DNA of 64,000 nucleotides from Maylandia zebra. Taxonomy: Eukaryota; Chordata; Actinopteri; Cichliformes; Cichlidae. Below, one piece after another: positions 364 to 55,685 of this stretch. The position numbers were made by a program, and so were the translations under genes. The stretch is taken from assembly GCF_041146795.1 (NCBI RefSeq), contig NC_135187.1, forward strand, positions 1,037,501 to 1,101,500, written 5' to 3'. Numbering within the stretch: position 1 is the stretch's first letter; each line of letters begins with the position of its first letter. Below the pieces are notes generated by a model. That model saw only the letters and a program-made list of their open reading frames with translations. It searched no databases and was not told where the DNA came from.

Positions 364-560
364 GGAGGACAATAGGAGAGAGATGCAGGTAAATAAAAGT
401 TTAGTGCACACACCTTAAACCATGACGATAACTACCATTACTCCACCTGCACATATTTGTCCTCAGGTTCATGTTGGCTGATTATAAAAAGAGGAGATGA
501 AGTCAGAGAACATCACTTTCTTTCACTGCAGTGGACGACTTACAAGCAAAGAAATACTAT
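364..560 (+). promoter_or_regulatory. Promoter and non-coding exon 1 of mucin gene A
   Basis: A TATA box (TATAAAAA) lies at 483-490. A strong splice donor (GTAAGT) follows at 561, so a short non-coding exon 1 of about 45 bp ends at 560. Upstream, 411-460 holds a block with an E-box-like CACCTG. The block is almost unchanged in all six gene copies and recognisable in a seventh, gene-less copy at 38.8 kb. The transcription start near 513 is inferred from TATA spacing. Confidence 0.8.
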
Positions 561-801
561 GTAAGTAACCCTAATATTAAATATATATCTGACATCTACA
601 TGTGAATTTAAGATGAATTGATAGATTTATTTCTGGAAATGATCTTTTGGCAACATATGGTGTAATTTAGGCAGCAATTTGTTGTGTTGGGTTGTGTTTA
701 TCTTAAAGTTCTGAAGTTTTTTTTATGCTTCTGTTTTTGTTTTGTTTTTTGCTATTACCCTTGATAAATAATATATGACACATTCACACACACACACACA
801 G

Positions 802-903
802 GTAGATAGATAGATAGATAGATAGATAGATAGATAGATAGATAGATAGATAGATAGATAGATAGATAGATAGATAGATAGATAGATAGATAGATAGATA
901 GAT
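802..903. repeat. (GATA)n microsatellite in intron 1 of gene A
   Basis: About 25 GATA units, preceded by a short CA run. The tract lies inside intron 1 and its length varies between array units. Confidence 0.97.
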
Positions 904-1306
904 TTAATGGGTTAGTGATTATATGTCAATATTGGAGTTGATTAACACTATAAACATGAAGTGGTGACTTTTGCTCTGATTTACAGTCAGGAACAATGAG
1001 GTCATGATAGTCAGAGCCTTTCCTTCATGATTTCTTAATTTCTTCTTGTTGCTTTTGCGTGTACAAGCACCTCGTTGAGAGATGTGGACTATCACAAAGA
1101 CAGTACTATAGAAAAAAAATCTATATTTTAAATTATGTAATTGAATAGGAACTTTTTTATATTATGAGTTTTAGATCTCAAACTTCTTTTCAAGATAACT
1201 TTAGAAAGCTTAATTAAGGCAATTGTAGGAATAATGCTTTCTTTAAATCATAATAACCACAGTGAATTTTTATTTTCAGAGACAGGAGCAGAAAAACAGC
1301 ATCACC

Positions 1307-51900: not shown

Positions 51901-52086
51901 ACAAAACAGCAACGGGGATTAGATTAAATGCTCAGTTTTGAACATTATAATCACACAAATTGAGAACAATTAAACACATTTCACTGAGAACGAGCTACAT
52001 GCTAATTTAAACATTTCATAAATTCTCATAAATAATTTTCTGTTATATTTATATTATTTACAGGAAGTGAACTGAAGAGAAAAATG

Positions 52087-54897
52087 TTAACAGTATGAGC
52101 TGAGTACATGTGACATCACAGGAATAATAACGGACAGGAAGCTGATGTTGATGAGGATGGCAGAGGAGGTGATGGTTGTTGTTGCTGCAGTTGTGGTTGT
52201 TGTCGCTGAGGTTGTGGTTGTTGTGGGGGCAGTTATGGTTGTTGTCGCTGCAGTTGTGGTTGTTGTTGCGGCAGTTGTGGTTGTTGTTGGAACAGCTGTG
52301 GTTGTTGTCGCTGCAGTTGTGGTTGTTGTTGCGGCAGTTGTGGTTGTTGTTGCTGCAGTTGTTGTTGTCGGGGCAGTTGTGGTTGTTGTTGGAACAGCTG
52401 TGGTTGTTGTCGGGGCAGTTGTGGTTGTTGTTGCTGCAGTTGTGGTTGTTGTTGGAACAGCTGTGGTTGTTGTCGCTGCAGTTGTGGTTGTTGTTGGAAC
52501 AGCTGTGGTTGTTGTCGCTGCAGTTGTGGTTGTTGTTGGAACAGCTGTGGTTGTTGTCGGAACAGTTGTGGTTGTTGTTGGAACAGCTGTGGTTGTTGTC
52601 GGAACAGCTGTGGTTGTTGTCGCAGCAGTTGTGGTTGTTGTCGCTGCAGTTGTTGTTGTCGGGGCAGTTGTGGTTGTTGTTGGAGCAGCTGTGGTTGTTG
52701 TCGCTGCAGTTGTGGTTGTTGTCGCTGCAGTTGTTGTTGTTGGGGCAGTTGTGGTTGTTGTTGGAGCAGCTGTGGTTGTTGTCGCTGCAGTTGTGGTTGT
52801 TGTTGCTGCAGTTGTGGTTGTTGTTGCTGCAGTTGTGGTTGTTGTCGGGGCAGTTGTGGTTGTTGTTGGAACAGCTGTGGTTGTTGTTGTTGCAGTTGTG
52901 GTTGTTGTTGATGCAGTTGTGGTTGTTGTTGGAACAGCTGTGGTTGTTGTCGCTGAGGTTGTGGTTGTTGTTGGGGCAGTTATGGTTGTTGTCGCTTCAG
53001 TTGTGGTTGTTGTTGCGGCAGTTGTGGTTGTTGTTGCGGCAGTTGTGGTTGTTGTTGGAACAGCTGTGGTTGTTGTCGCTGCAGTTGTGGTTGTTGTCGC
53101 TGCAGTTGTTGTTGTTGTTGTTGGAACAGCTGTGGTTGTTGTCGCTGCAGTTGTGGTTGTTGTTGCTGCAGTTGCTGTTGTCGGGGCAGTTGTGGTTGTT
53201 GTTGGAACAGCTGTGATTGTTGTCGCTGCAGTTGTGGTTGTTGTTGGGGCAGTTGTGGTTGTTGTTGCTGCAGTTGTGGTTGTTGTCGGGGCAGTTGTGG
53301 TTGTTGTTTGAACAGCTGTGGTTGTTGTCGCTGCAGTTGTGGTTGTTGTTGGGGCAGTTGTGGTTGTTGTTGCTGCAGTTGTTGTTGTCGGGGAAGTTGT
53401 GGTTGTTGTTGGAACAGCTGTGGTTGTTGTCGGGGCAGTTGTGGTTGTTGTTGCTGCAGTTGTGGTTGTTGTTGGAACAGCTGTGGTTGTTGTCGCTGCA
53501 CTTGTGGTTGTTGTTGGAACAGCTGTGATTGTTGTCGCTGCAGTTGTGGTTGTTGTTGGGGCAGCTGTGGTTGTTGTTGCTGCAGTTGTGGTTGTTGTTG
53601 GGGCAGTTGTGGTTGTTGTTGCTGCAGTTGTGGTTGTTGTCGGGGCAGTTGTGGTTGTTGTTTGAACAGCTGTGGTTGTTGTCGCTGCAGTTGTGGTTGT
53701 TGTTGGGGCAGTTGTGGTTGTTGTTGCTGCAGTTGTTGTTGTCGGGGCAGTTGTGGTTGTTGTTGGAACAGCTGTGGTTGTTGTCGGGGCAGTTGTGGTT
53801 GTTGTTGCTGCAGTTGTGGTTGTTGTTGGAACAGCTGTGGTTGTTTTCGCTGCAGTTGTGGTTGTTGTTGGAACAGCTGTGGTTGTTGTCGGAACAGCTG
53901 TGGTTGTTGTCGGAACAGCTGTGGTTGTTGTCGCAGCAGTTGTGGTTGTTGTCGCTGCAGTTGTTGTTGTCGGGGCAGTTGTGGTTGTTGTTGGAACAGC
54001 TGTGGTGGTTGTCGCTGCAGTTGTGGTTGTTGTTGGAACAGCTGTGGTTGTTGTCGCTGCAGTTGTGGTTGTTGTTGGAACAGCTGTGGTTGTTGTCGCT
54101 GCAGTTGTGGTTGTTGTAGCTGCAGTTGTGGTTGTTTTCGGGGCAGTTGTGGTTGTTGTTGGAACAGCTGTGGTTGTTGTTGCTGCAGTTGTGGTTGTTT
54201 TCGGGGCAGTTGTGGTTGTTGTTGGAACAGCTGTGGTTGTTGTCGCTGCAGTTGTGGTTGTTGTTGCTGCAGTTGTGGTTGTTGTTGCTGCAGTTGTTGT
54301 TGTTGGGGCAGTTGTAGTTGTTGTTGGAACAGCTGTGGTTGTTGTCGCTGCAGTTGTAGTTGTTGTTGGGGCAGTTGTGGTTGTTGTCGCTGCAGTTGTG
54401 GTTGTTGTTGGAACAGGTGTGGTTGTTGGAACAGCTGTGGTTGTTGTCGCTGCAGTTGTGGTTGTTGTCGCTGCAGTTGTGGTTGTTGTTGGAACAGCTG
54501 TGGTTGTTGTCGCTGCAGTTGTGGTTGTTGTCGCTGCAGTTGTGGTTGTTGTCGCTGCAGTTGTGGTTGTTGTTGAAACAGCTGTGGTTGTTGTCGCTGG
54601 ATTTGTGGTTGTTGTTGGGGCAGCTGTGGTTGTTGTCGCTGCATTTGTGGTTGTTGTTGGAACAGCTGTGGTTGTTGTCGCTGCAGTTGTGGTTGGGGCA
54701 GCTGTGGTTGTTTTTGGAGCATCTGCAGTTGTTGTTGCTGCGGTTGAGGTTGTTGTGCATGCATTGCAGCAGGCTGTGTAGAAATCTTTTCTCAGTTTCA
54801 TATTTGTTCACCCTTTTAACGAGTATAAAATTCTTTGAATAATAAAGCTTCTCTTACCAACAAAAAGAAGAACGATGATACAAATCTTTGCGATCAT
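52087..54897 (-). CDS. Mucin-like Thr-rich protein, inverted copy F (longest)
   Basis: On the - strand: exon 2 coding part 54,897-54,858, then exon 3 54,773-52,087, with GT-AG splice sites (donor GTAAGAG). 40 + 2687 nt give 908 residues. The signal peptide MIAKICIIVLLFV and junction ACCNAC match the array genes with substitutions. An N-terminal stretch (TTTSTAATTTADAPK) is more irregular than in A-E. The heptads are mainly TTTTTAA and TTTTAVP with TTTTTAP blocks. The tail SSAILINISFLSVIIPVMSHVLSSYC is diverged but keeps the Ser-Ser site and hydrophobic run. The whole frame is open. It is the oldest-looking copy and lies alone, opposite to the array. The G/T-rich + strand also has long open frames; these are by-products of the repeat. 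Confidence 0.8.
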
Positions 54898-55488
54898 AGT
54901 GAAGTTGTTTCTCTGCTCTCTGAAAATTTTGTCCATCATGGTTATTATCAGCTGAAGAAAAGATCAAATGCCTAGCATGCCTATGGTCGGTTTAATTCAA
55001 AGTATGAGGTTGGCATGAAAGAATGTTTTTGTTGAGTTAAAATCTTTGCATTTTACTGTTTTCATTCATGGCTGCAACATTATATAACTTTATATTTGAA
55101 ATTACCAATCTGTGATCTCTTTATTCTTAAAAATCTTACCTTGAAGTTGTCAATGTGCTTCTCTTACACTTTATCACTTCTTGTAATTTTTCATGTGTTG
55201 CTAATTATTTCATATTTACCATCAAGGTGCTTGTTTATACTGAGCTTGAAACAGAAGTATAGAACTAACATAGTTCTTTATTACTATTCATTACTATGAA
55301 AACAGAACAGAACCATTTAAAAAACGAAAACGTTACTTTTTAAAATGAAAATGCTCCCTAAATTAAACAACATAAAGCAACCAGATCACAGTAAAAATAA
55401 CAATTAGCCGTAAAAAACACATGTTGTATATTTAAAATGTATTAATATACAACATGTCAGATATATATTTAATATTAGGATTACTTAC
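54898..55488 (-). other. Exon 2 leader and intron 1 of gene F
   Basis: Contains the short exon 2 leader and an intron of about 0.57 kb. It lacks the CA/GATA microsatellite found in intron 1 of A-E. No other feature. Confidence 0.6.
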
Positions 55489-55685
55489 ATAGTATCTCTC
55501 TGCTTGAATGTCATCCACTGCAGTGAAAGAAAGCGATGTTCTTTGACTTCATCTCCTCTTTTTATAAACAGCCAACATGAACCTGAGTGCAAATATGTGC
55601 AGGTGGAGTAATGGTAGTTATCGTCATGGTTTAAGGTGTGTGCACTAACCTTTTATTTACCTGCATCTCTCTCCTATTGTCCTCC
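55489..55685 (-). promoter_or_regulatory. Promoter and non-coding exon 1 of mucin gene F
   Basis: On the - strand a TATAAAAA box lies at 55,568-55,561 and exon 1 ends at 55,489 before GTAAGT. About 200 bp align with the A-E promoters with only a handful of differences, closer than the intron or the upstream flank. Confidence 0.8.

Follow-up and report, generated by a model that had tools for sequence, protein, structure and literature searches.

Gene models and repeat arrays

The DNA analysed here, a 64 000-nucleotide stretch of Maylandia zebra (the window), corresponds to C21:1037501-1101500 of a host genome of 962 Mb. It holds six mucin-like genes with a common layout: a TATA promoter, a non-coding exon 1, a signal-peptide exon 2 and a single threonine (Thr)-rich exon 3. 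All six models were rebuilt. Their parts are given below by window position and strand, with the coding length of exon 3 and the protein length in amino acids (aa).

359..560, +, copy 1 promoter (TATA box) and non-coding exon 1; 242 bp identical among the five young copies
1307..1346, +, copy 1 exon 2 coding part, predicted signal peptide MIAKMFVIVLLVV, phase 1 donor
1441..3860, +, copy 1 exon 3 coding part (2420 bp), Thr-rich heptad array and hydrophobic tail, 819 aa protein
8173..8374, +, copy 2 promoter and exon 1
9106..9145, +, copy 2 exon 2 coding part
9240..11149, +, copy 2 exon 3 (1910 bp), 649 aa protein; 813 bp of exact array in common with copy 5
15461..15662, +, copy 3 promoter and exon 1
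16406..16445, +, copy 3 exon 2 coding part
16537..18038, +, copy 3 exon 3 (1502 bp), 513 aa protein
27429..27630, +, copy 4 promoter and exon 1
28335..28374, +, copy 4 exon 2 coding part
28469..29778, +, copy 4 exon 3 (1310 bp), 449 aa protein
34090..34291, +, copy 5 promoter and exon 1
35019..35058, +, copy 5 exon 2 coding part
35153..37494, +, copy 5 exon 3 (2342 bp), 793 aa protein
55489..55690, -, copy 6 promoter and exon 1
54858..54897, -, copy 6 exon 2 coding part, MIAKICIIVLLFV
52087..54773, -, copy 6 exon 3 (2687 bp), 908 aa protein, diverged paralogue

The promoter and exon 1 block measures 202 bp in each copy and includes the TATA box, by which the putative transcription start was placed. 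Exon 2 contributes 40 bp of coding sequence and ends in phase 1 in 6/6 copies. Exon 3 starts with CCNA codons, continues with the Thr-rich array and ends with the hydrophobic tail. No stop or frameshift was found in any of the six models. The rebuilt models (exon 3 of 1310-2687 bp) agree in 6/6 cases with the original prediction, made from the letters of the window, of an exon 3 of 1.3-2.7 kb, proteins of 449-908 residues and intact phase, frame and tail.

The arrays are built from a 21-bp unit and multiples thereof. Of the 519 distances from one Thr core to the next, all are divisible by 3 bp and 494 by 21 bp. The predicted length steps of mostly 21 bp were recovered in 484 spacings, the others measuring 18 (10), 24 (3), 27 (2), 36 (1), 39 (9) and 42 bp (10). 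Thr amounts to 58-65% of the composition, in runs split by short Ala/Val/Ser/Pro/Gly stretches. Proline/threonine/serine (PTS) domains were scored on 100-aa windows with S+T >40% and P ≥5%, as given in the available text of PMC5728529. These values were reached by 93.5-100% of such windows in the eight proteins tested out of the 12 intact ones (copies 1-6 and the giant genes A and B described below). Between paralogues, the repeat count within the single exon varies, as is typical of a mucin-type glycoprotein.

Divergence among copies 1-5 amounts to 0.3-0.6% upstream (5' flank) and 0-0.4% downstream (3' flank), and these copies are recent duplicates. Because five of the six genes are young duplicates, the window gives about two independent observations; copies 1-5 are too young for decay, and their intact frames therefore tell little. 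Their arrays differ far more than their flanks, in unit order and number. The longest array stretch shared among them is 79-143 bp, except for 813 bp between copies 2 and 5. The units were reshuffled mostly from a common set, 378/431 being found exactly in another young copy. The 813 array bases identical in copies 2 and 5 (9296-10108 and 35272-36084) lie 26 kb apart, the remainder of the two arrays being different, and point to a recent exchange.

Copy 6 is, to judge from its alignment with copy 5, an old, diverged lineage. The two copies align without gaps in the exon 2 coding part (36/40 identical; maximum of 20 shuffles, 24), in the tail (60/78; maximum of 20 shuffles, 50) and at the start of exon 3 (13/14), and 190/202 positions are identical in the promoter and exon 1. 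Past its first 35 bp, intron 1 gave 315 matches, with a shuffled mean of 308 and maximum of 324. Non-synonymous (dN) and synonymous (dS) divergence between the tails of copy 6 and the young copies was 0.23 and 0.43, respectively. Among the 123 units of copy 6, 55 occur exactly in copies 1-5. The possibility that copy 6 and the young copies have recently traded blocks of several units was rejected, the longest shared stretch being 52-69 bp, compared with 44-94 bp after shuffling of the units (six shuffles per pair).

The C21 cluster and retention of the frame

The prediction of a six-gene family held for the window, but the family is larger, with 12 intact genes and one broken member within about 255 kb on C21. 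Members were found by genome searches with intron 2, the tail and the promoter, then by reading stretches, and the counts are lower bounds. The members outside the window are as follows.

C21:960061-988596, +, gene A, 9481 aa
C21:1017509-1016324, -, copy of 363 aa
C21:1021558-1024441, copy of 929 aa
C21:1029677-1033532, copy of 1253 aa
C21:1110758-1110859, broken member, TGA in the tail
C21:1175943-1138107, -, gene B, 12 579 aa, exon 3 coding part 37 700 bp
C21:1213555-1207874, -, fifth lineage, 1864 aa

Protein lengths across the cluster run from 363 to 12 579 residues, a 35-fold range, the values for genes A and B coming from single-exon frames. In the 1.5 kb read upstream of the broken member there are only three Thr-block matches, none lying more than about 50 bp before the tail. 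A genome search with the tail (E up to 10) gave a single match outside C21, on C6 (E 2.4).

All Thr blocks stand in one frame in gene A (1237/1237, with 791 spacings not multiples of 21 bp), in gene B (1738/1738, with 615 such spacings) and in the fifth gene (243/243, with 103). The best repeat periods are 8 residues in gene A and 7 in gene B. The other two forward frames contain 35 and 26 stops in gene A and 77 and 55 in gene B. For the frame test, distinct block and spacer sequences were counted as a lower bound for substitutions; an indel:substitution ratio of 0.10 was assumed, with two thirds of indels not divisible by three. At this ratio 17.2 frame-breaking indels were expected in gene A and 16.8 in gene B, and none was seen (P ~3e-8 and ~5e-8). 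At a ratio of 0.03, P was ~0.006 for each gene. The flanks of the young copies showed 11 variable columns and gaps at one poly-C site only (3 kb x 4); in their 5' region, each pair differed by 3-6 substitutions and 0-4 gap events.

The original prediction had argued for selection from the lack of stops. This argument was rejected as weak, because stops hardly arise in a Thr-rich repeat and five copies are too young. In the window arrays, read in their coding frame, 0.10-0.22% of single-base changes make a stop, the average over all sense codons being 4.2%, and frame +2 is likewise stop-free in 5/6 window arrays. The absence of stops is thus near-empty evidence, and with such a composition open frames would last long even without selection.

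These figures bear on another reading of the locus, namely a 21-bp minisatellite in duplicated DNA, with little or no expression, whose open frames are a by-product of unit length and composition. A stop is almost impossible by one change in the window arrays and in gene A (0.13%), five copies have had little time to decay, and slippage and unequal exchange give 3-bp and 21-bp steps anyway. Gene B, however, is less protected (0.89% of changes make a stop) and is still open. Over gene A, gene B and the fifth gene, 3218/3218 Thr blocks are in frame. Copy 6 keeps the signal exon, the splice phase and the tail without indels, intron 1 being mostly unalignable, which supports selection and not a by-product. 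Finally, in the sole member that has kept no more of its array than a few Thr codons, the tail too is interrupted by a stop. A minisatellite was considered improbable.

Constraint on the coding sequence was assessed in the tail and in the Thr blocks. Among the 10 pairs of the five intact lineages (broken member left out), tail dN/dS was 0.24-0.92 in nine and 1.07 in the pair of gene B and the fifth gene (dS 0.05), as read without a formal test from tails of 78 bp. In the Thr blocks, third codon positions were compared with first and second positions together. They vary more often in copies 1-5 together (89/1716, 5.2%, vs 85/3432, 2.5%), in copy 6 (21/500, 4.2%, vs 18/1000, 1.8%) and in gene A (799/4908, 16.3%, vs 506/9816, 5.2%). 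With positions 1 and 9 left out, gene A gave 3.9% vs 1.7%. In a stricter count on exact 21-bp units, third positions of copies 1-5 varied at 4.9%, vs 0.9 and 3.2%. Thr content is kept, but loosely, which suits a glycosylated rod.

Several results weigh against selection on frame and ends, or limit its reach. Taken singly, the window arrays gave P(no frameshift) of only 0.05-0.19 at the assumed ratio of 0.10, as a minisatellite would allow, so that alone they prove nothing on frame selection; slippage of ACA triplets would by itself yield 3-bp steps. The signal exon of copy 6 has about equal dN (0.107) and dS (0.099) relative to the young copies, and tail dN/dS is ≥0.89 in 3/10 pairs. The third-position excess is missing in copy 4 alone (4/232 vs 10/464) and in the stricter count of copy 6, and it is slight in gene B once positions 1 and 9 are set aside (290/5214, 5.6%, vs 589/12166, 4.8%). 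Divergence of copy 6 is incomplete, because intron 2 (64 matches with copy 5; shuffled maximum 57), the 350 bp upstream (210; 204) and the first 60 bp of the 3' untranslated region (40; 35) still align weakly. The promoter of gene A is 99% identical to that of the young copies, yet it adjoins a quite different signal exon. This points to sequence exchange, and selection by itself cannot account for the conserved promoter.

Predicted product and its probable anchor

The cluster is best explained, with a probability of about 0.77 for the whole, by mucin-like proteins that are secreted, O-glycosylated and probably glycosylphosphatidylinositol (GPI)-anchored, and whose length varies freely. The sequence itself shows the gene structure, one reading frame running through the arrays, conserved ends and the composition. 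By a hand rule, the best 9-aa mean Kyte-Doolittle value of the predicted signal peptide is 2.4-3.9 in 5/5 lineages, gene B being the weakest; in this gene the predicted signal peptide is short and its core contains an Arg, a point against the explanation. The conserved tail pattern is TSSA-x3-N-x-SFL...HVL.S. A second hand rule found an SSA trio, a 6-residue spacer and a 17-residue C-terminal stretch in 5/5 lineages. The tail fits a GPI pattern by this hand rule only, and the family proteins are probably GPI-anchored.

The same tail could instead be a plain membrane segment or be cut off, in which case the products would be Thr-rich mucins or glues that are secreted but carry no lipid anchor. 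Its hydrophobicity is modest (mean Kyte-Doolittle 1.3-1.8), an Arg is present in the tail of 2/5 lineages and some members have polar or charged end residues, all of which count against a lipid anchor. On the other side, TSSA does not vary among the four aligned tails, SSA is found in 5/5 lineages, and the frame ends in the hydrophobic tail with nothing cytoplasmic after it. Loss of the lipid anchor from the explanation was judged rather unlikely, though less so than a minisatellite.

For the GPI-anchored mucins, the following sequence of events is proposed. The signal peptide would direct the protein into the secretory pathway, and a GPI anchor would take the place of the tail at the SSA site, unless the tail itself serves as a membrane tail. 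The Thr residues would, from the composition, bear dense O-glycans. The product would be a stiff brush on the cell surface, its height set by the repeat number. Unequal exchange and slippage would change this number by entire repeats or entire codons, so the frame would be kept, and purifying selection would clear the remaining, frame-breaking changes. The earlier claim of selection for a secreted, anchored Thr-rich glycoprotein of free length is supported in part, mainly by the ends of copy 6 and the frames of the giant genes; its own argument is weak.

Across the cluster, rods of widely differing length are combined with promoter, signal and tail parts that resemble one another. On a tentative, wider view, held to be less likely than not, these would be vertebrate lipid-anchored mucins without other domain, a single type of signal peptide and anchor being joined to rods of 363-12 579 residues that form brushes of graded height, with length as the evolving trait. 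If this is true, the longest rod would reach some micrometres off the membrane, as estimated from a general value of mucin extension per residue, and it would perhaps be among the longest lipid-anchored proteins. The available text of a 2025 review states, for coding tandem repeat expansion, that formal tests of frameshift absence against a neutral expectation are lacking (PMC12776774). The cluster offers such a test, with paralogues of differing age and length and the same ends, in which phase is informative and stops are not.

Relatives and neighbouring elements

Known mucin classes were compared with the family. Pfam detected no domain in the two window proteins scanned, and Cys residues number 0-5 in eight proteins counted. 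A gel-forming mucin (MUC2/5/6/19), which would have VWD/C8/TIL domains, was rejected, as none of the VWD matches listed, out of 152 in the genome, is on C21 and Pfam gave none in the two window proteins. A SEA-type membrane mucin (MUC1/3/12/16/17) was rejected as well, with no SEA or EGF domain by Pfam in the same two proteins and a frame that ends in the hydrophobic tail. Pfam gave no match for the gene B tail. Since SEA and gel-forming domains were not found and the tripeptide period of antifreeze glycoproteins (AFGP) is absent, the family was filed as a variant of a known mucin kind. Its members are apparently orphan mucins that consist of hardly more than a rod and what appears to be a lipid anchor. 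Trypanosoma cruzi TcMUC, CD52 and CD24 likewise have a signal peptide, a Thr/Ser-rich glycosylated stretch and a short hydrophobic GPI signal. They are far shorter than the C21 proteins, the parasite genes are intronless, and the likeness is by description only.

In how it would work, the cluster comes closest to the human 7q22 membrane mucin genes MUC3A/MUC3B/MUC12/MUC17 as described in the accessible part of PMC9578598, with clustered paralogues, one giant PTS exon, variable repeats and conserved ends. It differs in that no other domain was found in the C21 family (Pfam, two window proteins) and in its three-exon model. The PTS exon measures 39 267 bp in MUC3B (its exon 2) and 15 873 bp in MUC3A, according to the same text. 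The 37.7-kb exon of gene B is therefore not a record, and size alone is not new. A fish mucin without clear mammalian orthologue has also been described in gilthead sea bream, I-Muc; in the text available it is known as a partial mRNA, and it is likened here by description, not by sequence (PMC3680472).

Gadid AFGP genes form a teleost family in which a signal peptide precedes the Thr/Ala/Pro repeat of exon 3, as far as the available text of PMC8622921 describes them. The C21 genes might be antifreeze-glycoprotein-like polyproteins with Thr-Ala-Ala/Pro repeats. The composition (Thr, Ala and Pro with rare Arg/Lys) and the three-exon gene with repeats in exon 3 are as in the gadid genes (PMC8622921, same part). 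The gadid genes, however, encode a tripeptide-repeat polyprotein with cleavage linkers, and the C21 family has heptads or octads and a conserved hydrophobic tail; its best periods are 7-8 aa, not 3, and cleavage linkers were judged by eye only. AFGP membership was rejected on the period, and an antifreeze-like polyprotein is very improbable.

Other Thr-rich genes are present in the same genome at C17:13.147-13.347 and 14.12-14.27 Mb, C4:16.12 Mb and C18:38.35 Mb. They have the TTTTAAP unit in common with the C21 family and open frames of up to 5910 aa. Their flanking peptide is different and contains Cys, and the C21 tail was not found there; Pfam gave no match for the C17 flanking peptide. 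The same repeat type thus occurs with different flanks in another gene family of this genome. Similar repeat units were also seen on C3 near 38.41 Mb. No description of the C21 mucin family was found in the literature within reach of the search, which did not extend to subscription papers.

Rfam gave no match at gathering thresholds. A further, diverged promoter copy was found in the window.

38740..38835, +, seventh promoter copy, diverged (82%); no array after it within the window

No array lies between it and copy 6. Diverged promoter copies (80-82%) were found at this site, at C21:1014975-1015070 and at C21:989051-989150, 0.5-1.3 kb downstream of copy 5, of the minus-strand copy and of gene A. 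The copy at 38740-38835 is either a relic or the promoter of something else.

Nearby transposons had been described as riddled with stops. This holds for the gypsy remnant at 47.5-49.8 kb, which is in pieces and stop-ridden. It does not hold for the gypsy element at 21.1-24.0 kb, whose open frame of 979 aa gives reverse transcriptase, RNase H and integrase matches. The copy 3 duplicon holds a Ty3/gypsy piece (21096-26317) that duplicons 1, 2 and 4 do not have. A stretch of about 70 bp flanks this piece on both sides and is present once in the sister duplicons. At 57644-57973, a SWIM zinc finger is matched weakly (E 0.012, below the cut-off) by a fragment that possibly comes from a transposon.

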